From NCBI RefSeq assembly GCF_000472285.1, contig NZ_KI421421.1, forward strand, positions 264,784 through 328,783: a stretch of 64,000 nt of DNA. The letters are read 5' to 3'. This DNA is from Desulfuromonas sp. TF. Lineage in GTDB: Bacteria > Desulfobacterota > Desulfuromonadia > Desulfuromonadales > ATBO01. Below the pieces are notes generated by a model that worked only from the letters and a program-made list of their open reading frames with translations, searched no databases and had not been told where the DNA came from. Within the stretch, counting starts at the first letter, position 1, and each line of letters starts with the position of its first letter. This document shows, in pieces, positions 47,335 through 63,656 of the stretch. Both the position numbers and the translations under genes were made by a program.

Positions 47335-48762
47335 TCAGGACAGCTCCAGACCTTTTTTCTTGATCTTATCGAGGAGGGTGGTCCGATTGAGGTTCAACAG
47401 GCGGGCCGCCTCCTTCTTGTTGCCGCTGGACAGATTCAGAGCCTGACGGATCAGCCTGGACTCGAATTCGTCCACCAGGGCGTTGAAGTCGATGCCGGCC
47501 GAAGACCACGAGGGGCCGGATTCGGTCACGCCGTCTCGATACTCCTCCTCGCTGGTCGGGGCGGGATTGACCGCATCCGGCGCATACTTCTCGGGCAGGT
47601 CCGACAAGTCGATGGAACCGCCGCCGTGCAGGATGACCAGGCGCTGGACGAGATTTTCCAGCTCCCGGACGTTGCCAGGCCAGGAGTATTTCTTCAGTGC
47701 CGCCACCGCTCCGGGTTCGAAGCCGCGCAGCCGGTACTTGCGGTTTCGATTGTAGACCCGCACGAAATTTTCGATGAGCAGTGGAATGTCTTCTTTCCGC
47801 TCGCGCAGGGGGGGGATGGTCAGGGGAATGACATTGAGGCGGTAAAAGAGATCCTCGCGGAAGCGGCCCTCGGCAACCATCTGTTCGAGGTCCCGGTGGG
47901 TTGCGGCGACGATCCGCACGTCGACGGGGATCGGCTTCAATCCTCCCACCGGTTCGAAGGTCTTCTCCTGAAGGACGCGAAGGAGCTTGGCCTGCAGGGA
48001 GGGTTTCATGTCGCCGATCTCGTCCAGAAAGATGGTGCCCCCGTCGGCGAATTGAAAGCGCCCCATTTTGGCGCTCACCGCGCCGGTGAAAGCCCCCTTG
48101 AGGTGGCCGAAAAGCTCGCTCTCCAGCAGCTCGTCGGGAATCGCCGCGCAGTTGACGGGAACGAAGTTTCTGCCCTTGCGGCCGCTGAACGCGTGGATGG
48201 CTCGGGCCACCAGCTCCTTGCCGGTGCCGCTTTCTCCCCGGACAAGAACCGTGCTGTCGGCATCCTCGGCGACTCTTTCGATCATTTCGAACAGTGTCCG
48301 CATGTTCTGGGTGTTTCCGATGATGCCGTAGAAGCCGTCGCTCTTGCGGACCTTGAAGCCGCGCGTCTCCTTGTGGTTGATGAGGTCATGGTGAGAAAGG
48401 CCCCTGGCGGAGGCAATAATGGCTTCTCCTGTGTGATAGGGATAATTGAGATAGGTGAAACAGCCCATCTTCAACGCCTGCACGATGGCCTCCTGATTTC
48501 CGAGGGGGACGCAGGGAATGGTGATGACATGGGAAAACTTCCGATGAACGTTTTTCAGAAGATCGATCTGTTCGTCCGAGGTATGGAGATTGCCCGCAAT
48601 CAGGACGCAGATATCCTCCTGGGCCAGGATATCCAACACCTCCAGGGCCGTGGCGGCCTCGGCAACCACGCAGTCGATATTCTTGCGCAGCGCCATGGCC
48701 AGCTCCTCCCTGGCGGCGGGATCTTTCTCCACGAGCAGGATGCTGCGCAGGATGCTGGCCAT
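47335..48762 (-). CDS. Sigma-54-dependent activator with degenerate receiver
   Basis: A 475-aa regulator starting at ATG 48762 after AAAAGG. The N-terminal receiver-like domain (1-about 120) starts I-L-L-V-E-K-D but lacks the phospho-acceptor Asp (strand 3 reads V-L-I-A-G-N-L-H) and the conserved Lys (Y-L-N-Y-P), so it is unlikely to be phosphorylated. The AAA+ domain is complete: G-E-S-G-T-G-K-E, the intact G-A-F-T-G-A loop, G-G-T-I-F-L-D-E-I-G, and W-P-G-N-V-R-E-L-E. The C-terminus is a Fis-type helix-turn-helix (N-K-K-E-A-A-R-L-L-N-L-N-R-T). It lies next to a sigma-54 promoter for the lipoprotein gene. The activating signal is unknown. Confidence 0.92.
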   Translation of the reverse strand: MASILRSILLVEKDPAAREELAMALRKNIDCVVAEAATALEVLDILAQEDICVLIAGNLHTSDEQIDLLKNVHRKFSHVITIPCVPLGNQEAIVQALKMGCFTYLNYPYHTGEAIIASARGLSHHDLINHKETRGFKVRKSDGFYGIIGNTQNMRTLFEMIERVAEDADSTVLVRGESGTGKELVARAIHAFSGRKGRNFVPVNCAAIPDELLESELFGHLKGAFTGAVSAKMGRFQFADGGTIFLDEIGDMKPSLQAKLLRVLQEKTFEPVGGLKPIPVDVRIVAATHRDLEQMVAEGRFREDLFYRLNVIPLTIPPLRERKEDIPLLIENFVRVYNRNRKYRLRGFEPGAVAALKKYSWPGNVRELENLVQRLVILHGGGSIDLSDLPEKYAPDAVNPAPTSEEEYRDGVTESGPSWSSAGIDFNALVDEFESRLIRQALNLSSGNKKEAARLLNLNRTTLLDKIKKKGLELS

Positions 48763-48796
48763 GGAATTTTCCTTTTTAGGCAATAAAAAAATCCTA

Positions 48797-48880
48797 TCCG
48801 CAGATTTCGCAGATGTCACAGATAAAAAACCCTGAATTTTCATTGTTTTAAAATCTGCGTTCATCTGCGTCATCTGCGGA
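48797..48880. repeat. Inverted-repeat element 3 (CGCAGAT family)
   Basis: The left arm TCCGCAGATTTCGCAGAT has an inverted partner at the right end (TCCGCAGATGACGCAGAT read on the other strand), each arm holding about three CGCAGAT-like units. It lies after the end of the 1998-aa gene and before the activator gene. Confidence 0.7.
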
Positions 48881-48952: not shown

Positions 48953-51900
48953 TCAGAGGTTCTGCATCTGGCGGGCGGCTTCCCGGACGCTCTCCTGGTC
49001 GAACTTGAGCCGGAAGGCGACGAAGGGGCCCTGGGCCGTGAAGTCGGCTTTCGAGAAGTCCTCGTCCTCAAAGCCGAGGAAATTGTATCCGAGGCTGACC
49101 CAGGCATTCGTCGCCACGTTGCAGCCGATGGACACGCCGGTGCCGAAGTCGATCTGCCCGCTCTCCCAGGAGTGGAGCATCCCCCCCCGAAGGCCGATGT
49201 CCCATCGTTCGTCGAGGTCGTAGCGCCCTTCCACTCCGATCAGGTCGGTGAAGCCGTCGTAGGAGTCGCCATCGATGTTCTCCTGCACATACTTGGCCCC
49301 GTACTGCAGGGAGAGCTGGGTCCTGCGGTTCGGCTTGTAGTTGGCGTTCAGGTTGTTGACCAGGCGCCAGTTGTTGAAGCCGAAGTCCTCGGAGGACTCC
49401 TGTTCGAAGCGGTAATCCAGCCGGTTGAGGACGATCCAGCGGGTGTACAGGGGGCGGTAGGCGAGGCCGAAGCGGAGTTCGCCGTCCGTCCGCTCCGCCG
49501 TCCGGGATTCGGTGGTGAAGATCTGGGCCCGGGCCGAAAGGCCCAGCCCCCGGTGGACCTCACCCACGATGGCGCTGAAGAAACCCCATTTGTCCTCGGT
49601 CTCGCCGTCGCGGTATTCGATCCGGTTGGCCCAGGACCACTTCTCCAGCTTGTAGGTCGCCCCCAGGGAGACGGCGGTGAAATCCTCGGTTTCCCCCGAG
49701 GCGGGAGGCACGTCCGTGTCGAAGTCCTCGGCGTCCGCCTCCCTCATGGTGTGGCTGCGGTCGAAGCTGCCGTCCAGGCTCCAGCGCTCGCTCACCTGCC
49801 AGGTCTGCCCCAGGCCGAAGAGGGCGAACATCCTGGGGCCGTATTCCCCCGTCTGCTGCTCGAGGGAGCTGCTCACGGTGCCGCCGGTCCAGGGAGTGGT
49901 CTTGACGCCGACGCGGGTGGTCTGTGTTTCGGTATCGTCGTCCCGGGTGAATTCCTGGGCCGCGAAGAGGGTGGTGGACTGGGTGAGCTTGAAGTCGGCG
50001 CCCAGGGTGGTGCGGGTGGGGAAGTCCCCGCTTTCGTTCTTGCCTCCGAGGGACTGCTCGTGGACGGCGCGCAGCAGGAGGCGCTCATGGGCCTGCCAGG
50101 TTCCGCCGAAGAGGGCCTGGGTGGAGCGCTCCGTCTCGCCTCCTTCGAAATCGTCCACCGCCATTCGCAGGCCGGTGGTCAGGCTGTAGCGTCTGGCCTG
50201 CCAGGTGAGATCGGTCTGGGCCACGTCCCGCACCGCGTCCGTCTCCAGGTTCACCTGGCGGTAGAGCTGTCCTCCGAGCTCCAGCTCGTTCGTGAGGCGA
50301 TAGACCCCTTCACCTCCGAACTTGCGCGTCCCTTCCTCGCTTCCGCTCTGCTGGCCGAGACCGAAGCCGTTCTCTAGTTCGCGGACGTAGAGCCTTCCGT
50401 CCATCTTCTCGGCGCGGTGCTCCACCTCGGCCAGCCAGGCGCTCCCATTCCGGGAGACGCCCGGCGATTCCGAATCGCTGGTGGAGACCTCCGCCTTCAG
50501 CCGGGTCTCCTCCGTGATGTCCCAGGTGGCGTCCAGCCCGTAGAGGTCGCCTTCGGCGTTGTCCTGTTCCTCGTGGATGGCGGTGGCCCCGACCTCGATC
50601 CCCTTCTCCGGCCAGCGCAGCGCGGCGCGGCCGCCGTAGTTGAGGGAGGCTTCACCCTTCCCTATGACCTCGTAATCGACCACGATGGTGACGGGATTGA
50701 AGTTCTCGTCGCGGCTGGGGATCGGCTCCTTGAAGAAGAGAGTGCCGTCGGAGTAGTCGATGTTGTAGTCGATATGGCGGGTGAGCTCCCGGGAGGAGAC
50801 GATCACCTCGCTGCGCAGCCGGTCGCGCACCTCGATGGTTACCTCCTCCGAGTTGAGGACGATGTCCCTGCGGGAGAGGCGGTAGAGCCCCGAGGTGCCG
50901 TCGCCGCGGATCTCGTCCTTGACGAAGCCCTGCTCGGTGTCGCTGGCGAAGAGGTTGAAGGTCGCGTACTTGCCGTTGTACTCCGATTTGAAGCCGGTCA
51001 GTCTTCGGCTGTAGCGGGAGAGCTCGGTCTGGGTCAGCCCGGTGTCGTAGTCGCCGAAGAGGGCATAGAACTGCTCCCGCTCCAGCTTGACGTAGAGCTT
51101 CTCGGCGCTGGCGGCGTCGTAGGCCTGCTGGCTGGCGTCGCCGTAGAGGGTGTAGTAGGTGTCCGGATCGATGATCTGGAGCAATTCCTCGTCCTTGCGG
51201 TCCGGCTTGTCCGAGTCGTAGGCCAGAGTCAGCAGCCACTTGCCGAGAATCCGTCCCTTGCCGAAGAAGGCCACCCGGCCGTCCTCGTAAAGGTCCTCCT
51301 CCACGTTCGAAGGCAGGTTTTCCATGTTGCCGGACACATCGTTGTACCCCACGGTTCCTTCTGCCAAGCCGACCAGGATCCAGTCGCGGAGCTGGGGCTG
51401 GAGCCAGGCCCGGATCTCCTGATCGCGGTCGGCCAGCTTGAAGCGAAGGACCACCTCACCCGAGCGGCTGGTCGGCTCCAGTTGGATCAGGGCGACGCCG
51501 TCCGGGCCGACCTGGAAGTGGGGCCGGAAGTCCTGCTCCTCCGCCTCGACATTGCGGGCGACGGTCTCCTTCCGGTCCCAGGCCGCGTAGGGTAGGTCCA
51601 CCGCGAAGTCGCCGACCACCCCTTCCCGGGCTGGGTATCCGTCCTTGTCGGTCAGGCGCACGGCGATGACGGAGGGATTCTTGCCGTCGGCGATGAGGGC
51701 GGAATGCTCCGGGGAAAGGACGACCTTCACCGGGGGGCCGGAATAATGCACGTTGCGCTTCAGACGATGGATGACGGCGGCGTCGGCGTTGCGGACGACC
51801 AGCTCGAAGGCGTTGTCCCCGTCGTGAATCCCGATCCCCCGCCATTGGCTGACCGCCACCGTGCCGGCGCCGTTCGCGAGGGTTCCCTCGAAGGAAAGGG

Positions 51901-54900
51901 CGTGCACCGGCTTGCCGTCGAGGAGGAGTTCCACCTTCTCTTTCGGATGGTGCTTGACGGCCGCCTTGATGCTGGGGATAGGCGGTCCGTAAGAGGGTTG
52001 AGGCCAGATCCACTCCCGGCCGGGCTGGGCTTTTTCGACCCAGGTTTTGTCGATCTCGGGCATGCGGTCGCCGGGGAGAACCGGGGGCTGATTCAGGTTT
52101 TCGAGAGAGCCTTCGCCCGGACGCAGTCCCTCGGTTTCGGTCTTCTGCTCGCCGCTCCGGTCCTTCAGCATCTGAAGGCTGCGCGTCTCGGAAACCTTTT
52201 CGCACTGGAACCGCACCTCCACCCTGCGGTTCAGGGCGCGTCCCTCCGCGGTGGAATTGTCCGCGATGGGTCTGGTCTCACCCATGCCGGACAGGACGAT
52301 TTGGGAGGGGGGCAGCCCCAGGGCGTCGCCGAGATAGCGGCCGACGCTCTTCGCCCGGGCGTCTGAAAGGGCGAAATTATCGGTGTAGAGATGAAGGTTA
52401 TGCTGTGCGATGGGGATGTTGTCGGTATGTCCCACGACGTAGAGCCGACAAACATCCAGCTTCCTGAGCTTCTCGACGAGTGCGTCCAACTCGGCGTTGT
52501 CCTGCTCGGAAAGCTCGGTCCCCCGTGTGGGGAAATGGGGGCGCACGATGAACTCGGGGAGGAGGTCCCGGCTGTAGTCCGAACGGGCCCGCAGGAGGTT
52601 TTCGGCCATCGGAGTGCGCTGGTTCTTCTTCTGCGGGGAGTCGAAGGTCAGAAGCGCCCGAACCGGCAGTTCCGCCGGAGCCTTCAGGTCGACCTCGCAG
52701 CGGAAAGACACCTCCGCCACCCTGCCTGCGGCAAAGTCGCCGAGACCGAAGGTCGAAATGTTTCCGAACCCGGCCTTAGGATCGTCGAGGGGCGCGCTGT
52801 CCAGAGCGCCGGACCCCGGGACGTACCGAAGCCCCTCGGGAAGGATGAGGGAGAGACGCAGGTTGTCCACTGGGACGCCGCCGGTGCGGATCGGCAGCCG
52901 GAAAGACGCCTTATCCCCGTCCAGGGAGCCGTTCAGTTCGAGACTCACCTCTCCTTGCGCCCGGGGCTTTAGCGCTACGTGGAAGTCTGTGCGCCACATG
53001 GACCCGCCCTGCAGGTCGACGAACTGGGAGTAGGTCCTTCCGGCGAAGCGGCTGTTCTTCTCGCAGGCGACCGCCTCGTATTTTTCCGGCAGGGAGTCGA
53101 GGTCGAGCTGGACCACGTGGACGCCGGGTCGGACCCCCTCGAAGTGGAACATCCCGTTCTCGTCGGAGACGACGTAGGTGCCGTCCTCCAGGTAGATGCG
53201 CGCTCCGGCGAGTCCGTCCGTCTCCTCCGGCTCCGGTTCGCCGCAACCGCCGGTGAAGACACGCCCCATCAGGAAGGTGGTGCTTCGGAAGAAGTCTTCT
53301 TCGACGATCACCGTGGCCCTGGCGGTATTGGAAACGGTCCCCGAGGCGGTCACTGCCTCGGCGGTGTTGATCGCCTCCCCGGGACGGGCGCCGGCGGTTA
53401 TCTCCGCCACGTAGCGAAGCTCCCTTCTGCCCGCCGCGGGAAGGGCTCCCAAGGCGAAGTTCAGGGTCCGGCCATCGGCGGAAATGGCCGGGTCGGCGAT
53501 CCGGTTTCCGTCCAGGCGAGCGGAGCCGCTCCGGTAGCGGAAGCCCTTCGGCAGGCGGTCGGTCACGGTGGCCGCGGCGGTGGGGATGGTGTCGGGGTTT
53601 TCGACTTCCACGCGGTAGGGGACGAAATCGCCGACGGCCGCCCTGTCCTTGCCGGCGGTCTTCCTGAGCCAGACCCCGTCGGCGGCCACGGGGTCGACGG
53701 GAATGTCGATGCGCAGGGCCGGCCCCGGGTTGAGGGAAAACGGCTCGTTCCGGGATCCGGCAACGAGGGCGAAGGGGGCTCCGGGGAGGTCCTGCAGGTC
53801 CGCATCGGAGACGGCGGAGGGCGCGGTGTAACCGGGCGGGGTATTGATGTCCAGGCGGTAGTTCCCCGGAGCCACGAAGGGGAAACGATAGGCGCCGCGA
53901 CTGAAAGTGTACACGTTGCCGACGCTGTCGGTCGCGGTCCCTCCCGAAGTGAGGACGGAGGGATAGAGACTGATGCCGTCATCGCCGAAGACCGTGGCCG
54001 GCTCTCCCGTTTCCGCGTTCACCAGGGTGACGACCACTCCGTCCACCGGCAGGCCCGTCCGGCTGTCGAAGACGATGCCGAAGGGGTCGAAAAGGGAGGA
54101 GGATACCGAGGAGTCACTGCCGTCCATGATGTCGACGTAGCGCCCCTCCACCGTTCCTGCCTCCAGGACCTCCAGACGGCCGTCGTAGGGTGCCCCCGGC
54201 TGGCCGGTGGACTGGATGTAGCCGATGAAGACGCCCGTATCCGGCCCCGTCTCGGTCAGGCGCAGGACCTCCACGTCACCCGTTCCGGTGGCGGTGACCG
54301 TCACCAGGACCGTTTCGGCCATCTGCCGGTTCACGTTCTGGTCCGGATCGCTCAGACGGAGGAAGACCGCTTCGCCGCGGTGATAGATGGACGAAGCGGC
54401 GAGGGGGATATCCCCCTGCTCCAGGGCGATGGCGTTCCCCGAAGGGGGCTGGACCGGTGCGGAAAGGACCTGGAAGTCGCTCTCGGCCGCGGCGGCGGTC
54501 CGGTAGGAGGTGGTCGGCACGGGGACGTATTTCATCTCGGTGGAGGTGGGGGCGTATTTCAGGAACTCGAGGGTCGAGGGGGTGCGCGGCGCCGCCACGG
54601 AGAGGAGGCGGACCGTGTTGGAGGGAATGACGGTGTGCGCGTCCGTTCCGAAGGAGACCGCCGCCGTGTTCTCGATCGCCGTCCCGGCGGGGGTGAGGGC
54701 GAAAGCGGGGATGGCTCCGAGGAGGTACAGGAGGACGGCCAGGGAGAGGAGCAGCGCCTTTCCGTAGCGGCCCCGCCCGACAAAGGACGCGGCCGACACG
54801 GAAAGACGGGCGGACCGGTCTGCAGACCGGCCCGCCATGCGGATTGCAGTTGACTCATGACGTAGAGCGCAAAGGTCCCCCATCCCGGCGGGTTTGCCGG

Positions 54901-54949
54901 GTTTCGGGTGCGGCTTGGTGGCCGGGATGGGGGGGAGCGCATTGAACAT
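48953..54949 (-). CDS. Giant outer-membrane protein (1998 aa): DUF11-like, SdrD-like, OmpA, Ig-like and beta-barrel segments
   Basis: An export segment lies at residues 64-85 (A-L-L-L-S-L-A-V-L-L-Y-L-L-G-A-I). A DUF11-like domain (about 425-545) has V-G-D-F-V-P-Y-R-V-E-V-E-N. An SdrD/carboxypeptidase-regulatory-like domain (576-616) reads G-A-R-I-Y-L-E-D-G-T-Y-V-V-S-D-E-N-G. An OmpA domain (about 800-915) has V-V-G-H-T-D-N-I-P-I and N-R-R-V-E-V, expected to grip peptidoglycan. An Ig-like domain is near 1075-1120. From about 1185 on, alternating aromatic/charged strands suggest a large beta-barrel. Peptidoglycan-binding, surface-exposed and pore-like parts in one chain suggest an anchor or exporter for the secreted DUF11 proteins encoded before it. 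I cannot name a characterised homologue. The exact start is uncertain (in-frame Met at 54883 and 54838). Confidence 0.8.
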   Translation of the reverse strand: MFNALPPIPATKPHPKPGKPAGMGDLCALRHESTAIRMAGRSADRSARLSVSAASFVGRGRYGKALLLSLAVLLYLLGAIPAFALTPAGTAIENTAAVSFGTDAHTVIPSNTVRLLSVAAPRTPSTLEFLKYAPTSTEMKYVPVPTTSYRTAAAAESDFQVLSAPVQPPSGNAIALEQGDIPLAASSIYHRGEAVFLRLSDPDQNVNRQMAETVLVTVTATGTGDVEVLRLTETGPDTGVFIGYIQSTGQPGAPYDGRLEVLEAGTVEGRYVDIMDGSDSSVSSSLFDPFGIVFDSRTGLPVDGVVVTLVNAETGEPATVFGDDGISLYPSVLTSGGTATDSVGNVYTFSRGAYRFPFVAPGNYRLDINTPPGYTAPSAVSDADLQDLPGAPFALVAGSRNEPFSLNPGPALRIDIPVDPVAADGVWLRKTAGKDRAAVGDFVPYRVEVENPDTIPTAAATVTDRLPKGFRYRSGSARLDGNRIADPAISADGRTLNFALGALPAAGRRELRYVAEITAGARPGEAINTAEAVTASGTVSNTARATVIVEEDFFRSTTFLMGRVFTGGCGEPEPEETDGLAGARIYLEDGTYVVSDENGMFHFEGVRPGVHVVQLDLDSLPEKYEAVACEKNSRFAGRTYSQFVDLQGGSMWRTDFHVALKPRAQGEVSLELNGSLDGDKASFRLPIRTGGVPVDNLRLSLILPEGLRYVPGSGALDSAPLDDPKAGFGNISTFGLGDFAAGRVAEVSFRCEVDLKAPAELPVRALLTFDSPQKKNQRTPMAENLLRARSDYSRDLLPEFIVRPHFPTRGTELSEQDNAELDALVEKLRKLDVCRLYVVGHTDNIPIAQHNLHLYTDNFALSDARAKSVGRYLGDALGLPPSQIVLSGMGETRPIADNSTAEGRALNRRVEVRFQCEKVSETRSLQMLKDRSGEQKTETEGLRPGEGSLENLNQPPVLPGDRMPEIDKTWVEKAQPGREWIWPQPSYGPPIPSIKAAVKHHPKEKVELLLDGKPVHALSFEGTLANGAGTVAVSQWRGIGIHDGDNAFELVVRNADAAVIHRLKRNVHYSGPPVKVVLSPEHSALIADGKNPSVIAVRLTDKDGYPAREGVVGDFAVDLPYAAWDRKETVARNVEAEEQDFRPHFQVGPDGVALIQLEPTSRSGEVVLRFKLADRDQEIRAWLQPQLRDWILVGLAEGTVGYNDVSGNMENLPSNVEEDLYEDGRVAFFGKGRILGKWLLTLAYDSDKPDRKDEELLQIIDPDTYYTLYGDASQQAYDAASAEKLYVKLEREQFYALFGDYDTGLTQTELSRYSRRLTGFKSEYNGKYATFNLFASDTEQGFVKDEIRGDGTSGLYRLSRRDIVLNSEEVTIEVRDRLRSEVIVSSRELTRHIDYNIDYSDGTLFFKEPIPSRDENFNPVTIVVDYEVIGKGEASLNYGGRAALRWPEKGIEVGATAIHEEQDNAEGDLYGLDATWDITEETRLKAEVSTSDSESPGVSRNGSAWLAEVEHRAEKMDGRLYVRELENGFGLGQQSGSEEGTRKFGGEGVYRLTNELELGGQLYRQVNLETDAVRDVAQTDLTWQARRYSLTTGLRMAVDDFEGGETERSTQALFGGTWQAHERLLLRAVHEQSLGGKNESGDFPTRTTLGADFKLTQSTTLFAAQEFTRDDDTETQTTRVGVKTTPWTGGTVSSSLEQQTGEYGPRMFALFGLGQTWQVSERWSLDGSFDRSHTMREADAEDFDTDVPPASGETEDFTAVSLGATYKLEKWSWANRIEYRDGETEDKWGFFSAIVGEVHRGLGLSARAQIFTTESRTAERTDGELRFGLAYRPLYTRWIVLNRLDYRFEQESSEDFGFNNWRLVNNLNANYKPNRRTQLSLQYGAKYVQENIDGDSYDGFTDLIGVEGRYDLDERWDIGLRGGMLHSWESGQIDFGTGVSIGCNVATNAWVSLGYNFLGFEDEDFSKADFTAQGPFVAFRLKFDQESVREAARQMQNL

Positions 54950-54970
54950 GAAAAGCCAATCTCGTTGTAT

Positions 54971-56047
54971 TTATTGAATTTCGACCTGGAACTTGACGGT
55001 TGCTGATTCGCCGGCATCCAGTTCGATGCCGTTCACCGTCACGGTGTTGGTGCCGGTGATGTTCCAATTCCCTTCGTCATCACCATCTGCGTCGGTGAGG
55101 GTCGTTTCTGCCCCCCCATAAAGGTTTGGCGCGTCCACCTTGATGGTACCGGTGGAGAAAGCGACAGTGCCGGCGGTAATTTCGGTGTCCAAGCTGTCAC
55201 TGACCGTGATGCCTGTGGCGGTGGCCGAAGCGCCGCCGCCGTTGCTGATGGTGATGGTATATTCCACCGTCTCGCCGGGGATGTAGTAACCGGTGCCACC
55301 GATGACGGCCGAGGACTTTGAGATGGAAAGCTGGGCAGTGCCGACAGTGTAGGTTCCGGAATCCGAGTGCTTACCATCGGTGACGGCGTCGGCGTCGACG
55401 GTGGCGGTGCCGGCGGCGTCGACAAAAATGATATCCTCAAGGCCGACAGTATTGCCGCCGGTCTCTGCGAGGGCGATTCCACCGGCGCCGTTGCCGTCCC
55501 AAGCCGTGGCGATCAGGTGGTATACGTCAGTCTGGGTGTCAGCGGCCGTACCCGGGGCATCCGCAACGATGAAGATGACTTGATCAGCATCCTTGGCCAG
55601 GCTTATGTAAGGCGTAGCGCTGATATTGGTGTCAGAGCCGCTGCTAAAGATGCCGTCCCCATCGTCTTCCCAGACCTGGACGGGGGTATCCATGTTGAAA
55701 GTGTTCGCGCCTTCTTCGGTGGTCAGCTTGAGCTGCAGGGATTCCGCAGCCTTGGTATTGCTGTTGTTGGTCACTGTGAACGTGAGGGCATAGCCGGTAC
55801 CGTTGGGGACTACGGTGGCACCACCGTTGTTCGCCACCACCGGATCGATCTTGTAGTCGACCACGAATTCAGCGGGGGTGCTGGAAATCGATGGGGGGGA
55901 TACGGTGCCGATCTTGTAGTCGATGGTGGCACTGTTGCTGATGGTCTCTCCGGAATCGGTGCCGCCGGCAAACGCCTGCGAAGCCCCGAAGAGCAGCAGG
56001 GCGACCGCCGCGAGGGCGGTCAGGTGAGTGGTGAATCGATGTTTCAT
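54971..56047 (-). CDS. Secreted DUF11-like protein, 358 aa
   Basis: The start is ATG 56047 after AAAGGAGG. A signal peptide (T-A-L-A-A-V-A-L-L-L-F-G-A-S-Q-A-F-A) leads to a protein rich in Thr, Gly, Ala, Asp and poor in Cys. Two beta-rich modules are seen: residues about 30-200 (Y-A-L-T-F-T-V-T-N-N-S-N-T) and a C-terminal DUF11 domain (I-P-G-E-T-V-E-Y-T-I-T-I-S-N-G-G). Asp-rich stretches such as D-A-D-G-D-D-E-G-N could bind Ca2+. DUF11 domains are found in bacterial surface and extracellular repeat proteins. It ends 21 bases before the giant protein starts and is probably its partner or substrate. Confidence 0.8.
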   Translation of the reverse strand: MKHRFTTHLTALAAVALLLFGASQAFAGGTDSGETISNSATIDYKIGTVSPPSISSTPAEFVVDYKIDPVVANNGGATVVPNGTGYALTFTVTNNSNTKAAESLQLKLTTEEGANTFNMDTPVQVWEDDGDGIFSSGSDTNISATPYISLAKDADQVIFIVADAPGTAADTQTDVYHLIATAWDGNGAGGIALAETGGNTVGLEDIIFVDAAGTATVDADAVTDGKHSDSGTYTVGTAQLSISKSSAVIGGTGYYIPGETVEYTITISNGGGASATATGITVSDSLDTEITAGTVAFSTGTIKVDAPNLYGGAETTLTDADGDDEGNWNITGTNTVTVNGIELDAGESATVKFQVEIQ

Positions 56048-56184
56048 GGTCTTCCTCCTTTGGGGGTGAGTGTTTACGGATTGATTCTTGCCTCTTGCCT
56101 GTTTCATGTGCTTCTCCTTTTCTGCTGTTTCGCTTTCTGCGGATCCGGTTCATCGCGGCCGGTGGCCCCGATGAAGGCTGTGGA

Positions 56185-56676
56185 CTATTTCAACCGGGCG
56201 CGGAACTCGACCTGCGCCGTCTCGTTCGGCGGCAGGGGAGTGGTCCGCGTCCAGCGGATGTGGGTGACGTCGACGGAGGCGGCGGGGCGTTTGGTCCCGT
56301 CGGGCTCGGTGACCATGAGCTCGAGCAGGGGCCCGAAGGTTTGTCCGCCGTCCACGGAGTAGGTGACAACGGCGTCATTCCCTTCGGCCGAGGCGCCGAC
56401 ATAGATCATGTGCTCGGGGATGGCGTTGTTGATGACGACATCGTCGGCGGGCGCCTCCCCCTTGTTGATGTATGTGTTGATGAAGATGACCTCTTCCCCC
56501 GGGAGGACCTTGGTTGCGGGCTGCCGCACCAATTCCTTTTCCCCCTTCTCGTTGATCACTGACTTCTCGACGAGAGCCGAGGACTGGATCTCGATGGGGG
56601 CATCCTGCGCCGCGGCCGGGCCGGCGAAAGCGGTCAGGAAGAGGATTGTTATTAGAGCCGGAATGGTTCGTTTCAC
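56185..56676 (-). CDS. Small secreted DUF11-like protein, 163 aa
   Basis: The start codon is GTG at 56676, with AAAGGAGT 7 bases upstream. The signal peptide (I-P-A-L-I-T-I-L-F-L-T-A-F-A-G-P-A-A-A) is followed by one DUF11-like beta domain: V-L-P-G-E-E-V-I-F-I-N-T-Y-I-N-K-G, V-V-I-N-N-A-I-P-E-H-M-I-Y-V, and a C-terminal N-E-T-A-Q-V-E-F-R-A. No Cys in the mature part. It lies 12 bases after the 323-aa gene, so the two are tightly linked. It may be a minor or capping subunit relative to the longer paralogues; this is inference. Confidence 0.78.
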   Translation of the reverse strand: MKRTIPALITILFLTAFAGPAAAQDAPIEIQSSALVEKSVINEKGEKELVRQPATKVLPGEEVIFINTYINKGEAPADDVVINNAIPEHMIYVGASAEGNDAVVTYSVDGGQTFGPLLELMVTEPDGTKRPAASVDVTHIRWTRTTPLPPNETAQVEFRARLK

Positions 56677-56688
56677 GGGTGTACTCCT

Positions 56689-57660
56689 TTAATCGATGGT
56701 GACCTGAAAAGTGACTGTTTTCGCCGTATCCTGCAGGTCGCCGAGGCGGACGGTGACCGTGTCCCCGGCCACCTCGCCGGCGTCGCCGTCCGTGGCGTCG
56801 GTGAGAGCGCCTCCATCGACCTTGAGCGAGTCGTCGACGTAGGTCGTGCTGGCCGGGATGGGATCGGTGAGGGTGACGGTTTTGGCCGTGCCGCTGCCGG
56901 TGGCGGTGAGCTCGATGGAGTAGGTGACGACCGCCGCGGGCATTGGCTCGCTCCCCCCGTAGGGGTCGACGACCGACTGGGACTTGACGACCGTGACATC
57001 GACGGCGGAGATCTGGAGAGTTGCCTCATCGCTCGCGCCGGCGCCGGTGGCGCCGACCACGGCGTTGACTCCCCCGTCTCCCGCCCCGGCGAAGGCGGTT
57101 CCGGGAGCGCCGGTCCCGGTCTTGGCGACTGCGGTGAGACCGGACTTGCCCAGATCGGAGTCGTTGACGCCGGCGGGGATGTTATTGACCACGAAGAGGG
57201 CGATCGAGGCGTCGGCGGCCAGCGCGGGATCGTTGACTCCGGCGCCGTACAGGGTGTCGGTTCCGGCGTCATACTGGCCGTTGTCGTTGGCGTCGAGGTA
57301 GACCCCGGAGAGGGTCGGGTCGAAATGGTCTCCGCCGAGGCCGTTGTCGACCGTCAGGGTGAACGCCTCGCCGCCGTTGCCGGTGTTGGTCAGCAGGAAG
57401 GTGGCCACCTTGCCGGTCTCCCCCGCCTTGCCCAGGATGTTTGACGAGTCCTGCCATGCCAGGGTGACGTCGAGGACCTCGGCGACCTGGAGGGTGACCT
57501 CGTTGCTATCCTGGTTGACCGTCGTGGTATCGACGACGAAGGAAACGCTCGCCTTGTTGGTGATGTTGGTTCCGGCCGCCGTCCCCGCGGCGAGCGCCGG
57601 CAGTGCCGGCAGCAGCCAGAGGGCCGAGGCCACGATCAGCAGTAGAAGTATCCGTCTCAT
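56689..57660 (-). CDS. Secreted DUF11-like protein, 323 aa
   Basis: The start is ATG 57660 after AAAGGAGAAAGG. It has a signal peptide (I-L-L-L-L-I-V-A-S-A-L-W-L-L-P-A to A-L-A). The N-terminal module starts A-G-T-N-I-T-N-K-A-S-V-S-F, comparable to I-S-N-S-A-T-I-D-Y in the 358-aa protein and I-E-N-T-A-A-V-S-F in the giant one, so these secreted proteins share a start module. The linker has D-A-N-D-N-G-Q-Y-D-A-G-T-D, an EF-like acidic loop. A C-terminal DUF11 domain (A-A-V-V-T-Y-S-I-E-L-T-A-T-G-S-G) ends the protein. Role unknown; probably an extracellular structural protein. Confidence 0.8.
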   Translation of the reverse strand: MRRILLLLIVASALWLLPALPALAAGTAAGTNITNKASVSFVVDTTTVNQDSNEVTLQVAEVLDVTLAWQDSSNILGKAGETGKVATFLLTNTGNGGEAFTLTVDNGLGGDHFDPTLSGVYLDANDNGQYDAGTDTLYGAGVNDPALAADASIALFVVNNIPAGVNDSDLGKSGLTAVAKTGTGAPGTAFAGAGDGGVNAVVGATGAGASDEATLQISAVDVTVVKSQSVVDPYGGSEPMPAAVVTYSIELTATGSGTAKTVTLTDPIPASTTYVDDSLKVDGGALTDATDGDAGEVAGDTVTVRLGDLQDTAKTVTFQVTID

Positions 57661-57765
57661 TTCATTCCTTTCTCCTTTCCTTTGCGCAGAGGGATCTCTG
57701 AAGTTTCCTGTCTGTTTTCCGAGGCTTTTCGGATTCATGTTTTTTCCTTTTCATTCAATGGCGGG

Positions 57766-60700
57766 TTATCGCACCCGGACATAAAAGACGATGCTGAAGC
57801 TCGGGTGACTGGTGCCGTCCGAGGGGAGAAACGTGCTCATGGGGTTGACGATGATCTTGCGCACCGCCGGGTCGACGCCGTTGCCGTCGGCGCTGGGCGA
57901 AATCGGGTTGTCGGACGCGTCGCGGTAGACGACGTCGGCGGCCCCGTTGAAGGTCAGGCCGCTGGATATGGCGCCGTCGATGAAGGTGACAGGGCTGCCG
58001 TTTACCACCAGGTCGGTCTGGGCGGGAATCTGGTCGGAGAGGGTCACCGAGTCGGCGTCCGCGGAACCATATCCTGTGTTGGTGGCGAAGATCGTGTAGC
58101 GCATCACCGCCCCGGGGATGGAATAGGGGTTGGTGGTGCCGTGAACGGGGTCGGAGAAGGTCTGTACCATCTTCACCAGGGTGATGTCCGGCAGCCCCAG
58201 GTTGAATATTCCCGCGCCATCGTCCGAGATAGTCCCTTCCGTCCCCTCCTCGGCCGTGACGGTGACCGTCCAGGTCCCTGTCGGACCCGCGGTCGGAGCG
58301 GGGTAGGCGTACTCGAAGGTCTTGGTCAGCGTCCCCGAATCGGCCACCTGGGTCATGGCGGCATCGCTTACCACGGTTGTGCCGTTGGGGTTCTTGAGGG
58401 TGATCGTGGCCGAGGTGATGTCGAAGCTGCCGAAGGGATCGCTCACCACCGCCCTGAGGTAGACCGGCTGTCCTCCCCCGATGTAGCCGTTGGCGGGAGT
58501 GGCCGTCGAAGGATAGGCCGCACTGTAGCCCGTGACGCTGTCCACGTTGATGACGTTCAGGGAGGGGAGGGAGATGAAGGAGTTGTTCCCTCCGCTCGTC
58601 GGATAGACGAGGACGCTGCCGGTGGTGCCTGTATTGTTCACGGTGAGGTTCCAGGTCTGACCGGCGCCGCAGAAATGGTTTCCCGGGACCGTCAGGTTGT
58701 TGAAGGACACCAGGGTCGGGGTGGTCGGCAGATACGGATTGTTGACGGCGGTCCCGTCGAAGATCTTCGATTCGGAGTAGGTGGGTCCTCCGCCGGAGCA
58801 GGCGACATTGACCTGTACGGTCCGGCTCTGGCTTGCGGCGCTGCTGGCCAGATACAGGTTGACGGGGATGATCGCCAGGGGAGTCACGTCCGGACTGATC
58901 GTCACCGGAGAGGCCAGGGCCGGGTTAAGGGCCCACGTTCGCGAAGTGCCTTGGCCGATGGTCACCGAGCTCTGGGCGCCCGCGGGTTTCGAGCGGGAAA
59001 GCTTGTAGGAGGCGGCGCCGTCATGGAGATACAGCAGTTTGTTCCCCGCCCCGGCAATCGCCGAGGGGGAAACGATGAGGGTGGAGGTGCAGGGGGAAGC
59101 GCCGATTCCGCCGGGATTGGAGATGGAGGCGCAGTTGTTGATAGTCGTGCCCGCCGACGTGCCCATCGGAATGGTCGCGTCGAACACGACGGATACCGAA
59201 CCGCCGGCCGGGACCGTGACGCCGGTGGCGGAAAGGGTCTGGCCCGAGAAGCCGCAGGTCGCGCCCGCGGGGCAGGAGACGACCGTCAGTCCGCTGAGGT
59301 CACTGGAGACCGCGTCGGTGAGAGAAACGTTCGTGGCCTCGACCCCCGCGGTTTCCTTGAGGGTGACGGTGTAGCGGATGACGTCCCCGGGATCGGACTC
59401 GCCGCCGTTGCCGTCCTGCCAGGTTTTGGTGGAGGTGGAAAGATTCGATACACCCACCGCCAGGGATGCGGAGGCCGTATCGCCGACGTAGCCTTCGGCG
59501 CTGGTGACCGTTCCGGTGCTGTTGTTATAAACTCCGTCGACGGCGCTGGTCACCTTCGCCGTGATCGTGCAGCTTCCGCCGGCAGGGATCGTCCCGCCGC
59601 TGAGGGCAAGGGACGAGCCGCCGCCGACCGCCGTCACTGAGCCGCCGCAGGAGTTCGTGACGCCGGGAACGGCGGCGTTGAAGAGGTCGGACGGATAGGT
59701 GTCGGTGAACGTCACTCCTGTCGCCGCGGCAAGATTGGTATTCTGAAGGGTGATGGTTAGGGCCGTCTCCCCGTTCGCGGAGATGGACGGCGGGGCGAAG
59801 GACTTTGAGACGACCAGTTTGGTGACGACGTCGTTGACGTCGGCTGCCGAATTGTTTTCAGCGTCGACGGTGACAATGGCCGTATTGGTCAGCGGTCCCG
59901 CAGGGGCGGAGGCGCTCACGGTGGCGCCGATGGTGAAGGTGACACTGCTGTTCACCGGCATGGAGGGAATGATGATCCCTCCGCCCTGCATGGTGGAGAT
60001 GGGGAGAGAACCCGGGCAGGTCGCCCCACCGGCGGCGGAACAGCCGAGGCTGTCGACCGTCAGGTAGGCGACCGCCGGATCCTGAAAGATCGCATTGCTC
60101 AGAGTAGCGCCCGTGGTGTTGGTGATGGTGACGGAATACGTGGTGCCGTCACCGGCGGTGATGGTGTTGATGCCGTCCGATTTGCTGATGGTGGGCAGAA
60201 CTACTAGGCTCACAGTGCTCTTGAGGACGTCCGCCTCCACCGTGCCGTCAGGGACGTTGCATTTGGATTTTGTATTGGGAACCGGATGCTCCGCAGTTTC
60301 ACAGAGATTTCCGCTCTGATTGTCCCAACTCGTGACGAATGGAATGAAAAGCCTCCCCCCGCTCAGGTTGACGGCTTGGCAGGACACCGGGACTCCAGTC
60401 ATTCGCACCACGCCGGAGCCCGTACCTCCGCCGATGCCACTGTTGCCGTCGCCGCAGGTGTCCGGGGAGCCTTCGAGATCGAAGAACGGGCTGGCAGGCG
60501 GGAGGATGGAAACGGTACAGCCTGTAGATCCCCCGTCGGACGGATGCGTTGCGGGACTTTTCCCATCCTTGGCGAAGAAAATGCCGACATCGTAACGGTC
60601 AGGTGAAGCGAAATTGACGGTCACATCCAGGTCGACAGTGACGGGCTCGCCGCCGACGCAGGACGTGGGACCGCCCGGGACAATCGTTATGCCTGTGATC

Positions 60701-60888
60701 GAGACATCATTGGCGGTGCAGTTCAGGTTGGAGCCGAATCGTTCCGCCGCGCACTGGCTCGGGCCATAAGCATAAGCCGCAGCCATACTGAAAAGCTGGC
60801 AGGCGAGCGACAGCAAGATGGCGATAGTTGCGTTTGTGATGATGTTTTTCCTGATGCGGTTAATCTTCAAGTCATATCTCTTCAGCAA
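57766..60888 (-). CDS. Large secreted multi-DUF11 protein, 1040 aa
   Basis: The frame opens with TTG at 60888; a second TTG at 60870 with AAGAGA upstream is an equally good start, and no ATG fits. A signal peptide (I-A-I-L-L-S-L-A-C-Q-L-F-S-M-A-A-A-Y-A) is followed by a Cys-containing N-terminal domain (to about 225) and at least three DUF11 modules (I-T-A-G-D-G-T-T-Y-S-V-T-I-T-N-T, I-S-A-N-G-E-T-A-L-T-I-T-L-Q-N-T, D-P-G-D-V-I-R-Y-T-V-T-L). Later beta domains lead to a fourth DUF11-like end (I-P-G-A-V-M-R-Y-T-I-F-A-T-N). Paired Cys may form disulfides. It is the longest secreted member of the operon and a candidate fibre or adhesin. Confidence 0.82.
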   Translation of the reverse strand: MLKRYDLKINRIRKNIITNATIAILLSLACQLFSMAAAYAYGPSQCAAERFGSNLNCTANDVSITGITIVPGGPTSCVGGEPVTVDLDVTVNFASPDRYDVGIFFAKDGKSPATHPSDGGSTGCTVSILPPASPFFDLEGSPDTCGDGNSGIGGGTGSGVVRMTGVPVSCQAVNLSGGRLFIPFVTSWDNQSGNLCETAEHPVPNTKSKCNVPDGTVEADVLKSTVSLVVLPTISKSDGINTITAGDGTTYSVTITNTTGATLSNAIFQDPAVAYLTVDSLGCSAAGGATCPGSLPISTMQGGGIIIPSMPVNSSVTFTIGATVSASAPAGPLTNTAIVTVDAENNSAADVNDVVTKLVVSKSFAPPSISANGETALTITLQNTNLAAATGVTFTDTYPSDLFNAAVPGVTNSCGGSVTAVGGGSSLALSGGTIPAGGSCTITAKVTSAVDGVYNNSTGTVTSAEGYVGDTASASLAVGVSNLSTSTKTWQDGNGGESDPGDVIRYTVTLKETAGVEATNVSLTDAVSSDLSGLTVVSCPAGATCGFSGQTLSATGVTVPAGGSVSVVFDATIPMGTSAGTTINNCASISNPGGIGASPCTSTLIVSPSAIAGAGNKLLYLHDGAASYKLSRSKPAGAQSSVTIGQGTSRTWALNPALASPVTISPDVTPLAIIPVNLYLASSAASQSRTVQVNVACSGGGPTYSESKIFDGTAVNNPYLPTTPTLVSFNNLTVPGNHFCGAGQTWNLTVNNTGTTGSVLVYPTSGGNNSFISLPSLNVINVDSVTGYSAAYPSTATPANGYIGGGQPVYLRAVVSDPFGSFDITSATITLKNPNGTTVVSDAAMTQVADSGTLTKTFEYAYPAPTAGPTGTWTVTVTAEEGTEGTISDDGAGIFNLGLPDITLVKMVQTFSDPVHGTTNPYSIPGAVMRYTIFATNTGYGSADADSVTLSDQIPAQTDLVVNGSPVTFIDGAISSGLTFNGAADVVYRDASDNPISPSADGNGVDPAVRKIIVNPMSTFLPSDGTSHPSFSIVFYVRVR

Positions 60889-60937
60889 TGGCGTTCAGCT
60901 TAGAATCGCGATCAAAAGCACAATCCGGCATAAACAA

Positions 60938-61423
60938 TCAGGAGGAATACGAAACCATCAGCCCTTCCGCGAACGCATCCTGTTCACAGGCGCACTCCGA
61001 AAGAAGGGAGATCACGCTTTCCACAATTTCAATGCGACATGTATTTGCGTTGCCACAGCCGTTCAGCTCCGACGGCAGGTTTTTCTGAATGTAGTCACGT
61101 ACGACGGGGACGTAGCGATGGCCGGCAAAGTCGCCATCGAGCAGCGATCCGAAAAAGCCGTCCAGTTGTCGGCGAATGCCTGCATAGGCGGAGGGGCTTC
61201 CGGTTTTTCCGTCCGCCGCCCAGGGACCCTGGCAGGCCGCCGTCAGGCTTTTTCCGAGAACCCGCAGGCGCGCCGCCAGTTCGAGGGCCAGCTCTTCGGC
61301 GTGCAGCCGAAGCTGATGAAAAGCCTGAGTGGTTTGCGAATCGATCGGCCGACTGTTCGCAGAGGTCCTTTCCTGCAAGGAAGAACCGGCGCGAAGAAGG
61401 CAATTGGGGTTTATTGATTTCAT
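60938..61423 (-). CDS. Unknown protein, first gene after the tandem riboswitches (161 aa)
   Basis: The start is ATG 61423, 34 bases after the riboswitch terminator; GGAAGA lies upstream. The protein looks helical and cytosolic: T-T-Q-A-F-H-Q-L-R-L-H-A-E-E-L-A-L-E-L-A-A-R-L, then L-D-G-F-F-G-S-L-L-D-G-D-F-A-G-H-R-Y and a C-terminal half with several Cys (C-G-N-A-N-T-C, L-S-E-C-A-C-E). No family is recognised and there is no signal peptide. As the first gene read when the riboswitches allow transcription, it could be a regulator or chaperone for the secreted proteins. Confidence 0.6.
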   Translation of the reverse strand: MKSINPNCLLRAGSSLQERTSANSRPIDSQTTQAFHQLRLHAEELALELAARLRVLGKSLTAACQGPWAADGKTGSPSAYAGIRRQLDGFFGSLLDGDFAGHRYVPVVRDYIQKNLPSELNGCGNANTCRIEIVESVISLLSECACEQDAFAEGLMVSYSS

Positions 61424-61456
61424 GTCCGTCTTCCGTCCGGTGGCGCAGCTAAAATG

Positions 61457-61484
61457 AAAAAAACCCATGCTTGGGGAGCATGGG
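61457..61484 (-). terminator. Terminator of proximal GEMM-I riboswitch
   Basis: Read on the minus strand: CCCATGC-TCCCCAA-GCATGGG followed by seven T. It forms the expression platform of the aptamer at 61510-61626. Confidence 0.85.
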
Positions 61485-61509
61485 CCTGGGCGCACGGGTG
61501 CGCTAATCC

Positions 61510-61626
61510 ATACTCCCCGTCTCTTCGGTAGCCCGGCTGCCCTTTCCGCCTTTGCTGCGTGTCGGCGGGGGAGGGCCCGTGGCTTTGCGTCCCTGGATCT
61601 CTCCAGGTTTGCCGTTATCGGAGTAT
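61510..61626 (-). promoter_or_regulatory. GEMM-I (cyclic-di-GMP-I) riboswitch, proximal copy
   Basis: On the minus strand, P1 pairs ATACTCC with GGAGTAT. Inside are the conserved GGCAAACC, a P2 stem (CCTGG/CCAGG), GGGACGCAAAGCC and the P3 region ending GGCTACCG. The base preceding the conserved G of GCAAACC (position 20 of the Vc2 numbering) is G, as in c-di-GMP-binding members. A terminator follows, so it is predicted to control read-through into the surface-protein operon. Confidence 0.9.
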
Positions 61627-61726
61627 GGGTGGGTTAAAATGTTGTGGCGCGGGTTTTGTTGTTGCGGGGGAAGCCGCGGGGCGGGTTCCCTCCTGAAAAA
61701 GCGGCATCAAGCCGCAAGAAAACAGT

Positions 61727-61757
61727 AAAAAGCCCATGCTCAGCGGGAAGCATGGGC
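61727..61757 (-). terminator. Terminator of distal GEMM-I riboswitch
   Basis: Read on the minus strand: GCCCATGCT-TCCCGCTG-AGCATGGGC followed by five T. Confidence 0.82.
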
Positions 61758-61778
61758 CGGGCGCACAATTGCGCTTGT

Positions 61779-61891
61779 CCATACTCCCCTTCTCTTCGGT
61801 AGCCCGGCTGCCTTTTCCGCCTGCGTGTCGGAGGAGGGCCCGTGGCTTTGCGTCCCTGGATTTCTCCAAGTTTGCCATTATCGGAGTATGG
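61779..61891 (-). promoter_or_regulatory. GEMM-I (cyclic-di-GMP-I) riboswitch, distal copy
   Basis: Same elements as the proximal copy: P1 CCATACTCC/GGAGTATGG, GGCAAACTTGG, GGGACGCAAAGCC and GGGCTACCG. Position 20 is again G. The two aptamers are in series on one leader, each with its own terminator. Sequence before each aptamer is also duplicated (61626-61716 resembles 61891-61980), which shows a tandem duplication of the whole control unit. Confidence 0.9.
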
Positions 61892-62052
61892 TGGGGTTAA
61901 AAATGTGATGTTGCGGGTTTTTCTTACGGGGGAAGCCGCGGGGCGGGTTCCCTCCTGGGCAACCGGCATTACGCCAAAGATAAAAAAGAAGCACAGTTAA
62001 TGTCGAACGAACTGGTAATGACGTCGACATCGGATTTATCGTTTCATTAAAT

Positions 62053-62069
62053 ATCCACGATTTGTGCCA
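62053..62069 (-). promoter_or_regulatory. Possible sigma-54-like promoter upstream of the tandem riboswitches
   Basis: On the minus strand TTGGCACAAATCGTGGA has a full TGGCAC -24 block, but its -12 reads GTGGA (GG instead of GC) at the correct spacing. It lies directly after the sigma-54 activator gene at 62157. The rest of 61980-62156 shows no gene. Confidence 0.4.
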
Positions 62070-62156: not shown

Positions 62157-63536
62157 TCAATCATCCGAGTCGTCATCCATCCCATACCGCGCCATCCGGC
62201 GGCGGAAAGTGTAGTAATTCATGTCAAGAAGACGCGCGGCGACCATCTTTTTCCCTCCCGCCGCGGCCAATGCGCGCTTCAGTGCCCATTTTTCAACTTC
62301 GGCCATTTTGAAGGGAAGATCGTCCGGGGAAACTTCGAATGATTGACCTTGGGCGGCGGAAATTCTCGCCGCGGGGTCGATCTCTCCGAGGATGCCCTGC
62401 AGGATGGCGGGGGAGATCACGTCGTCCGCCATGATCGCGGCGTGCTTGATGACATTGCGCAGCTCACGGACATTCCCGGGCCATGAATGGGACTGCAGCA
62501 TGGTCATGCCGTCCGCGGAAATCTCCAGCGGAGGCCTGCCGATTTCATGACAGGCTTCGCGCAGAAACTTCCCGGCCAGAGCCGGAATGTCTTCGGGAAT
62601 GACGCGAAGAGGGGGCATCTCGATCATGAAGGTTGCGAGACGGTAATAAAGGTCCTGACGGAAGTTGCCCGCCGCGGCCTCGGCCGCCAGGTCCTTGTTG
62701 CTGGCGGCGATTATGCGGATATCGGCGTGCGCCTTGCGGTTGCTGCCGAGGGGGTGATAGCTTTTTTCCTCTACCAGTTGAAGGAGCAGCGCCTGCACGG
62801 CGGGTGGGGCGGCATCGATATCGTCGAGGAAGAGGGTCCCGCCCTTGGCGGCGGTGACCAGACCCTCCCGCTTTCGTTCGGCACCTGTGAAGGCTCCCTT
62901 TTCATGGCCGAACAGGTCGGCGGCTACCAGCGATTCGGGAATGGCGCCCAACTGGACGGTCACGAACGGTTTGTCGGCGCGGGGGCTGAGATCGTGGATC
63001 ATCGACGCCAGCCTCGATTTGCCGGCACCGGTCTCGCCCTGGACCAGAACGGCATAGTTGCTGCGGGCGATCCGCACCACTTGGCCGGCGATTTTTTTCA
63101 GTTTCGGCCCTTTGCCGAGCATCTGCTCGACGGATTGGCGCAGTTCGCTGTTGAGGCCGAGCAGCTGTTTTCTCTGCAGAACCGGCAGCGCCGCCTTCTC
63201 AAGGGTGGAGATCAGCTTGTCGTCTTCGCACGGCTTCGGAACGAATCCCGCGACACCGAGTTCGATGCCGCGAAGCAAATAGGGAACATCGGAAAAGGCA
63301 CTGAAAAAGACCACCGGAGTTTCGGGACTGAGCCGACGTAGCTGTTCAGTCAAGGCGATGCCGTCCATCTCCGGCATGATGATGTCAGTGAGCACGAGGT
63401 CAGGTTTTTCCTTGAGGAAAAGATCCAGAGCCTCACGCCCGTTGGTGGCGATGAGCACTTTGCGGCAATGGGGAGACAGAAGATCTCCCACGGCCTTGCG
63501 CAGGAGTTTCTGATCTTCCACAAAAAGCAATTTCAT
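62157..63536 (-). CDS. NtrC-family sigma-54 response regulator with riboswitch leader
   Basis: A 459-aa regulator. In-frame ATGs at 63560, 63554 and 63536 all lack a good ribosome-binding site; 63536 opens the receiver cleanly (M-K-L-L-F-V-E-D-Q). The receiver is intact (L-V-L-T-D-I-I-M-P-E-M-D-G; Lys in V-P-K-P). The AAA+ domain has G-E-T-G-A-G-K-S (A/S for the usual T/E), G-A-F-T-G-A, G-G-T-L-F-L-D-D-I-D and W-P-G-N-V-R-E-L-R, and the C-terminal Fis-type helix-turn-helix reads G-G-K-K-M-V-A-A-R-L-L-D-M. No kinase is adjacent. Its gene lies just upstream of, and in the same direction as, the surface-protein operon, which it probably activates. Confidence 0.92.
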   Translation of the reverse strand: MKLLFVEDQKLLRKAVGDLLSPHCRKVLIATNGREALDLFLKEKPDLVLTDIIMPEMDGIALTEQLRRLSPETPVVFFSAFSDVPYLLRGIELGVAGFVPKPCEDDKLISTLEKAALPVLQRKQLLGLNSELRQSVEQMLGKGPKLKKIAGQVVRIARSNYAVLVQGETGAGKSRLASMIHDLSPRADKPFVTVQLGAIPESLVAADLFGHEKGAFTGAERKREGLVTAAKGGTLFLDDIDAAPPAVQALLLQLVEEKSYHPLGSNRKAHADIRIIAASNKDLAAEAAAGNFRQDLYYRLATFMIEMPPLRVIPEDIPALAGKFLREACHEIGRPPLEISADGMTMLQSHSWPGNVRELRNVIKHAAIMADDVISPAILQGILGEIDPAARISAAQGQSFEVSPDDLPFKMAEVEKWALKRALAAAGGKKMVAARLLDMNYYTFRRRMARYGMDDDSDD

Positions 63537-63584
63537 ATGTTTAAGTATGTTCATCAACATATAAACAAATCATCTTTACATCAC

Positions 63585-63620: not shown

Positions 63621-63656
63621 TAAGAATTCCCTTGGATACACAGGGAATCTTCATGG

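Follow-up and report, generated by a model that had tools for sequence, protein, structure and literature searches.

The minus strand of the window (the whole 64,000-nucleotide stretch of Desulfuromonas sp. TF DNA analysed here) carries a five-gene cassette, B to F, that probably encodes a surface-fibre system under second-messenger control, in which DUF11 subunits would be joined by donor strands and the giant protein F would act as the outer-membrane and peptidoglycan anchor. At the sequence level, the proposal draws on the gene order, the aptamers, the conserved synteny, the truncated C-termini, the matching N-termini and the OmpA domain. Hereafter, a last DUF11 domain that appears to lack its final strand region is termed an acceptor, and an N-terminal extension resembling that region is termed a donor. 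The features are listed in Table 1.

Table 1. Features of the cassette and its flanks
Feature	Position	Strand	Evidence or remark
Sigma-54 consensus TGGCACAATCTTTGCT upstream of gene U	63942-63957	-	perfect, 0 mismatches
GEMM-I aptamer preceding activator gene U	63664-63743	-	A at Vc2 position 20, cGAMP-type signature
Intrinsic terminator behind the aptamer of U	63589-63621	-	terminator scan
Gene U (467 aa), receiver, sigma-54 AAA activator and HTH	62157-63560	-	Pfam
GEMM-I aptamer 1	61794-61885	-	G at position 20, c-di-GMP-type signature
Intrinsic terminator behind aptamer 1	61731-61758	-	terminator scan
GEMM-I aptamer 2	61523-61622	-	G at position 20, c-di-GMP-type signature
Intrinsic terminator behind aptamer 2	61461-61487	-	terminator scan
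Gene A, between the aptamers and B	60938-61423 (ORF opens 61495)	-	small protein without known domain
Gene B (1040 aa)	57766-60888	-	DUF7933 and several complete DUF11 domains
Truncated C-terminal DUF11 domain of B (putative acceptor)	57769-58173	-	DUF11 models
Gene C (349 aa)	56689-57738	-	putative donor N-terminus and acceptor C-terminus
Putative donor module of C (residues 49-79)	57502-57594	-	matches internal-DUF11 model positions 93-121
Truncated C-terminal DUF11 domain of C (residues 267-347)	56692-56988	-	aligned to positions 13-90
Gene D (163 aa)	56185-56676	-	single truncated DUF11 domain, without donor N-terminus
Gene E (378 aa)	54971-56107	-	putative donor N-terminus and acceptor C-terminus
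Putative donor module of E (GGTDSGETISNSATIDYK...)	55856-55966	-	motif/alignment
Truncated C-terminal DUF11 domain of E (putative acceptor)	54974-55330	-	DUF11 models
Gene F (1998 aa)	48953-54949	-	signal, putative donor module, CarboxypepD_reg, DUF11, OmpA and a large predicted barrel; anchor or conduit in our proposal
Putative donor module of F (residues 86-113, LTPAGTAIENTAAVSF...)	54611-54694	-	internal-DUF11 model
OmpA peptidoglycan-binding domain of F (residues 806-908)	52226-52534	-	Pfam
Predicted barrel region of F (~residues 1190-1998)	48956-51382	-	AlphaFold2, Pfam and Foldseek
Gene R, NtrC-like sigma-54 activator immediately downstream of F	47335-48873	-	Pfam

Organization of the cassette

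The genes B, C, D, E and F are separated by gaps of only 12-77 nt, and no terminator-like site was found between them on the minus strand. An earlier reading of the sequence alone had proposed one minus-strand unit of five exported genes, preceded by two GEMM-I aptamers and a gene for a sigma-54 activator. Our analysis confirmed all three elements, the activator gene being U and the two tandem aptamers being detected with E values of 1e-13 to 1e-14. DUF11 domains, which the same reading had assigned to all five proteins, are clear in B and F, both of which pass the Pfam cut-off (PF01345). The complete proteins C, D and E fall below it, but the isolated C-terminal domains of C and E score 26.4 and 25.5 bits, respectively, against a cut-off of 24.6. 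The largest DUF11-rich protein of the cassette is the 1040-residue B, which has a truncated last domain, lacks a donor N-terminus and is thus of the acceptor-only type.

The ATG of gene A at 61423 is positioned past the terminator, and homologues of A were found only in two loci, L043 and L054. At the other end of the cassette, the position of gene R directly after F is repeated in locus L039. Further downstream (46025-47074, minus strand) lies a gene for a HAF-repeat protein with a poly-glycine run behind a lipoprotein-like signal, and its homologue in L039 occupies the same place.

DUF11 domains divided between proteins

We built a model of internal DUF11 domains from 17 seeds, 15 from B and two from F. 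Alignment to this model indicates that the N-terminal module of C, E and F represents the closing part of a DUF11 domain (model positions ~90-121), and that B, C, D and E stop at positions ~94-102, just short of the piece held in the module. Protein C shows both ends, terminating at residue 349, two residues past its acceptor alignment. The N-terminal module of F aligns weakly to positions 97-112, and residues 126-161 of D align weakly to positions 55-92.

The same pattern was seen over all loci. Counting the scorable terminal matches only, the projected protein ends lie at position 94 for E (n=32), 97 for C (n=29) and 101-102 for B (n=6) and D (n=4). By comparison, the internal DUF11 domains of B and F extend to positions 112 and 118, respectively, and the donor pieces begin at positions 88-91. 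Using models of the C and E families, we found that 224 proteins of type B, C, D or E terminate at most three residues from the same point of the domain, a coincidence that is built into the model for C and E and is independent for B (45 proteins) and D (54 proteins). The donor motif IxNxAxxx[FY] is present in 35/48 C, 53/70 E and 54/78 F proteins, compared to 2/47 B and 5/65 D proteins. The sequence-only reading had attributed this N-terminal module to all five proteins; it holds for C, E and F, but not for B and D, in the window and mostly across the loci. Moreover, 48 of 78 internal DUF11 copies run on into IxNxA, compared to 14% of random windows of B and F.

In a joining test, the mature N-termini of C, E and F extended the DUF11 match of C and E acceptors in register in 82-89% of trials, and with B and D acceptors the match continued across the joint in 46-65%. 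The controls gave 5-22% for B N-termini, 18-43% for D N-termini and 15-43% for shuffled donors; D N-termini gain some score as well, since they form the start of a DUF11 domain. The gain is small, averaging +1.9 bits per pair. A second model built from the internal domains of F only gave the same direction, and single examples from the window scored with the Pfam model gained 1.5-4.8 bits upon joining, compared to 1.3 for the control.

In a distant relative, locus L057 encodes a 938-residue protein whose acceptor domain runs straight into a donor piece, in frame and within one chain; we regard it as the proposed joint fused in nature. A similar fusion was sought in the long F proteins (2155-2813 residues) and rejected, as a complete DUF11 domain is absent at the E/F junction. 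Mutual information over 85 C/E sequences, a sample of low power, revealed no enrichment between donor and acceptor (0.64, compared to 0.55 for other cross-domain pairs) and gave the proposed complementation no support. A sequence search found no solved DUF11 structure. The AlphaFold2 model of the E monomer has a mean pLDDT of 92 and a pTM of 0.83, with the donor region at ~95. Given this confident placement in the monomer, the donor of E may fold on its own protein.

The giant protein F

Pfam matched CarboxypepD_reg, DUF11 and OmpA (4.3e-16) domains in F. Two residues of the OmpA domain, D843 and R865, are nearly invariant among 21 homologues, and we take them to be the peptidoglycan-binding Asp and Arg of OmpA domains. 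As the donor module is N-terminal to the OmpA domain, the donor would be periplasmic unless it threads the barrel.

AlphaFold2 prediction of residues 915-1998 with 20 homologues gave 32 long antiparallel, barrel-like strands starting at about residue 1419, with a mean pLDDT of 70 and a pTM of only 0.53. Within the barrel half, the strands show alternating hydrophobic and polar faces (z = 6.4 compared to shuffled strands). Foldseek search with the model returned mainly large outer-membrane proteins, including SlpA, SprA, the Mtr complex, LptD and TonB-dependent receptors, with TM-scores against solved barrels of mostly ~0.2, and Pfam OMP_b-brl was matched in 8 of 20 family members. Taken together, the predicted strands, the alternation of faces, the Foldseek matches and OMP_b-brl make it likely that the C-terminal region of F is an outer-membrane barrel, with about 32 strands predicted. 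The combination of DUF11, OmpA and barrel segments in one protein had been suggested from the letters alone. The two domains are confirmed here and the C-terminal region is predicted as a many-stranded barrel, so that the lack of a barrel prediction, which the earlier reading would have counted against itself, did not occur. Members of this giant barrel family currently carry no annotation beyond “DUF11 domain-containing protein” or “TonB-dependent receptor”.

The N-terminus of F (54694-54949, minus strand) has an extension of ~60 residues ahead of the hydrophobic core of the signal, which resembles an extended signal peptide. It includes an arginine-rich, SARLS-like stretch that is also present in some homologues.

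Conservation of the cassette

Of 98 relatives sampled from the same order, 41 have a relative of the F barrel, as do 29 of 395 genomes from the phylum. One genome collection yielded 455 candidate loci, the best 80 of which were retained. The loci span Desulfuromonadales, Desulfobacterales, other Desulfobacterota, Nitrospirota and Gammaproteobacteria, and the cultured hosts include Geomonas, Desulfatibacillum alkenivorans and Marinobacterium profundum.

Synteny was counted over 63 distinct loci with an F protein longer than 1500 residues and at least 2.5 kb of upstream sequence. Beside F, a D gene is present in 61 loci, a C or E gene in 61 and two C/E-type genes in 47. DUF11 genes thus accompany the giant in 61/63 loci, so that a giant without them, which the earlier reading would have counted against its own proposal, is not the pattern observed. 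Using five protein profiles, we found that C-D-E-F or D-E-F adjoins F at nearly every locus with sufficient flank. The position of B is more variable: it lies upstream in 32 of 55 loci having at least 5.5 kb and downstream of F in several lineages, and its length varies widely from locus to locus. Among more distant plasmid relatives, DUF11 genes adjoin in the two annotated cases considered (Acinetobacter and Phyllobacterium).

The source genome itself contains a second, split version with a GEMM-I aptamer on another contig (C14, locus L058, 4718-18541, minus strand). Its long DUF11 open reading frames of 1981 and 841 residues overlap, perhaps owing to a frame error, and its 1728-residue barrel protein has OmpA-type repeats.

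Riboswitches and probable sigma-54 control

The three GEMM-I aptamers of the window score 70.3, 67.1 and 53.9 bits with the covariance models, each above its gathering score (59, 59 and 35, respectively). Aptamers are also found immediately ahead of the orthologous operons. A G at Vc2 position 20 denotes the c-di-GMP type and an A marks the cGAMP class. We read position 20 off the alignment, locating it by the J1/2 and J2/3 limits published for the cGAMP riboswitch (PMC6274999). The specificity position is G in both operon aptamers of the window and in the Geomonas loci, and A in the aptamer of U and in about 12 orthologous operons. Judged by this signature, the operon aptamers of the window would be of the c-di-GMP type and about half of the orthologous operons of the cGAMP type. 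Orthologous leaders with A at this position usually also read GACGCAGA rather than GACGCAAA; the two changes are linked and might define a subclass.

Rfam labels the operon aptamers as c-di-GMP-I-GGC, yet they have an A after GACGC where the consensus of that model has a G. With this substitution, the bases that contact the ligand match those of canonical c-di-GMP-I, and the assignment at 61523-61622 and 61794-61885 possibly mislabels ordinary c-di-GMP-I aptamers. Folding of both operon leaders showed that P1 and the terminator form together, and that the 3' strand of P1 could alternatively pair with the 5' arm of the terminator. In locus L087 (17766-18954, plus strand), four GEMM-I aptamers lie within ~1.2 kb, followed by another B-type gene at 19074.

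Several orthologous loci also have gene U upstream of B. A candidate sigma-54 site directly ahead of the operon (62054-62069) was rejected, as it has two mismatches and such sites occur at chance number. Apart from the perfect site upstream of U, the remaining matches in the window have one or two mismatches each, and their number equals chance.

Proposed assembly and alternative explanations

In the assembly that we propose, B, C, D and E are exported subunits of the Ig-like DUF11 type, each without the final strand region of its last domain. C, E and F would supply this region as an N-terminal extension, so that subunits join head to tail via donor-strand complementation. The far end would be formed by the acceptor-only B or D, the middle by C and E, which have both donor and acceptor, and the base by the donor-only F; these three kinds of protein provide the ends needed for a tip, a shaft and a base. 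B is the proposed tip or adhesin. The barrel of F, with its ~32 predicted strands, would hold the chain in the outer membrane and may double as an exit pore, and the OmpA domain would tie F to the peptidoglycan. The GEMM-I aptamers and their terminators would gate expression, and the upstream sigma-54 activator probably does so as well. Physical complementation, polymerization, the order of subunits, the outer-membrane route and the adhesive role are what we infer. The sequence-only reading had envisaged an envelope or fibre system with F as peptidoglycan-linked anchor or conduit, which fits the present findings, but it overlooked that the shared module corresponds to the part absent from the truncated C-terminal DUF11 domains.

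A different account of the same genes makes F a secretion channel dedicated to B-E, which would be separate surface or released proteins rather than a polymer, the module being a recognition tag for F. The near-constant adjacency of DUF11 genes to F, the very large barrel, the T9SS channel SprA among the Foldseek matches and the position of the module directly behind the signal peptide all agree with it. We nevertheless consider this account unlikely: B and D lack the module, so a common tag could not serve all cargo, F carries the module itself, and the module, by homology the final part of a DUF11 domain, matches the point of truncation. In addition, no SprA_N match was found in the F-barrel family members or in the whole genome, a negative to be read with the fact that the control genomes gave none either.

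The E monomer model, in which the N-terminal region is ordered (pLDDT ~95, pTM 0.83), would also suit circularly permuted DUF11 proteins, in which the N-terminal strand of C or E completes the last domain of the same protein and yields monomers instead of a chain. This is improbable, because B and D are truncated without a donor and F has a donor without a truncated last domain, so that self-completion fails for three of the five proteins. Least probable, and only a slim chance in our estimate, is a periplasmic tether, in which the DUF11 proteins connect F with the peptidoglycan and strengthen the envelope, leaving the surface empty. The OmpA domain of F and the location of the donor end on its N-terminal side are compatible with such a tether, but the length of B varies between loci as expected for an exposed tip, the second-messenger control is of the biofilm type, and surface filaments made of DUF11 repeats are known from elsewhere (PMC13319060).

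If the donor-strand fibre is correct, it would represent a fibre class in Gram-negative bacteria of several phyla with no recognizable chaperone or usher, and would give a role to the DUF11 repeats and to the giant barrel family. The occurrence of c-di-GMP-type and cGAMP-type aptamers by lineage would allow a direct test of signal-specificity exchange on one conserved operon. Since cultured hosts are available, the system is testable.

Comparison with known systems

In Geobacter, GEMM-I aptamers of the GEMM-Ib (cGAMP) regulon, sometimes in tandem, precede genes for surface and extracellular electron-transfer functions, and G. sulfurreducens has tandem GEMM-I aptamers before an operon, as described in the part of the regulon account considered here (PMC6456294), which makes no mention of a DUF11 cassette. 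Different from that cGAMP regulon, the operon aptamers of the window have the c-di-GMP-type base.

The likeness of F to SprA consists in a very large single-chain outer-membrane barrel (Foldseek E value 6e-07, TM-scores ~0.2). Kinship with SprA and the T9SS found no support: neither a PDB profile search nor Pfam gave a match, and no further T9SS parts were recognized in the cassette. The T11SS was rejected, since the literature match concerned DUF1194, a different family. A search of the open-access literature found no description of the B-C-D-E-F cassette.

GhlA of Litorilinea aerophila forms a filament of 49 DUF11 domains arranged as beads on a string (PMC13319060). GhpA and GhlA are each one giant chain, whereas the cassette, which has no comparable single chain of dozens of domains, splits the array over several proteins with breaks inside a domain, and differs further in its riboswitch control and barrel anchor.

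In chaperone-usher pili, Ig-like subunits without a last strand are completed by the N-terminal extension of the next subunit and assembled at an outer-membrane barrel (PMC9715654). The truncated Ig-like subunits and donor N-terminal extensions of this pathway appear to fit the sequence logic of the cassette. However, those pili are built from pilin-family subunits instead of DUF11 domains, neither chaperone (PapD-like) nor usher families are among the Pfam matches of the operon proteins, and the cassette has at its base a protein in which a very large barrel is combined with OmpA and DUF11 domains. For archaeal threads (Saci_0406), donor-strand complementation links the subunits head to tail, and no chaperone-usher pathway is known for them (PMC9715654). 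They have one main subunit and, unlike the cassette, neither an outer membrane nor an OmpA anchor. From the DUF11 filaments found elsewhere and the donor-strand complementation of pili and threads, we infer that the same principle may operate here.

It is quite possible, though short of probable, that the cassette represents a new class of outer-membrane fibre, in which DUF11 arrays are cut inside a domain and rejoined by donor strands without chaperone or usher, one protein that combines the donor, the OmpA domain and a barrel of at least 30 strands serves for assembly and anchoring, and orthologous operons respond to either c-di-GMP or cGAMP. Neither the principle nor the building blocks are new, and there is a substantial chance that the assembly machinery belongs to a new class.
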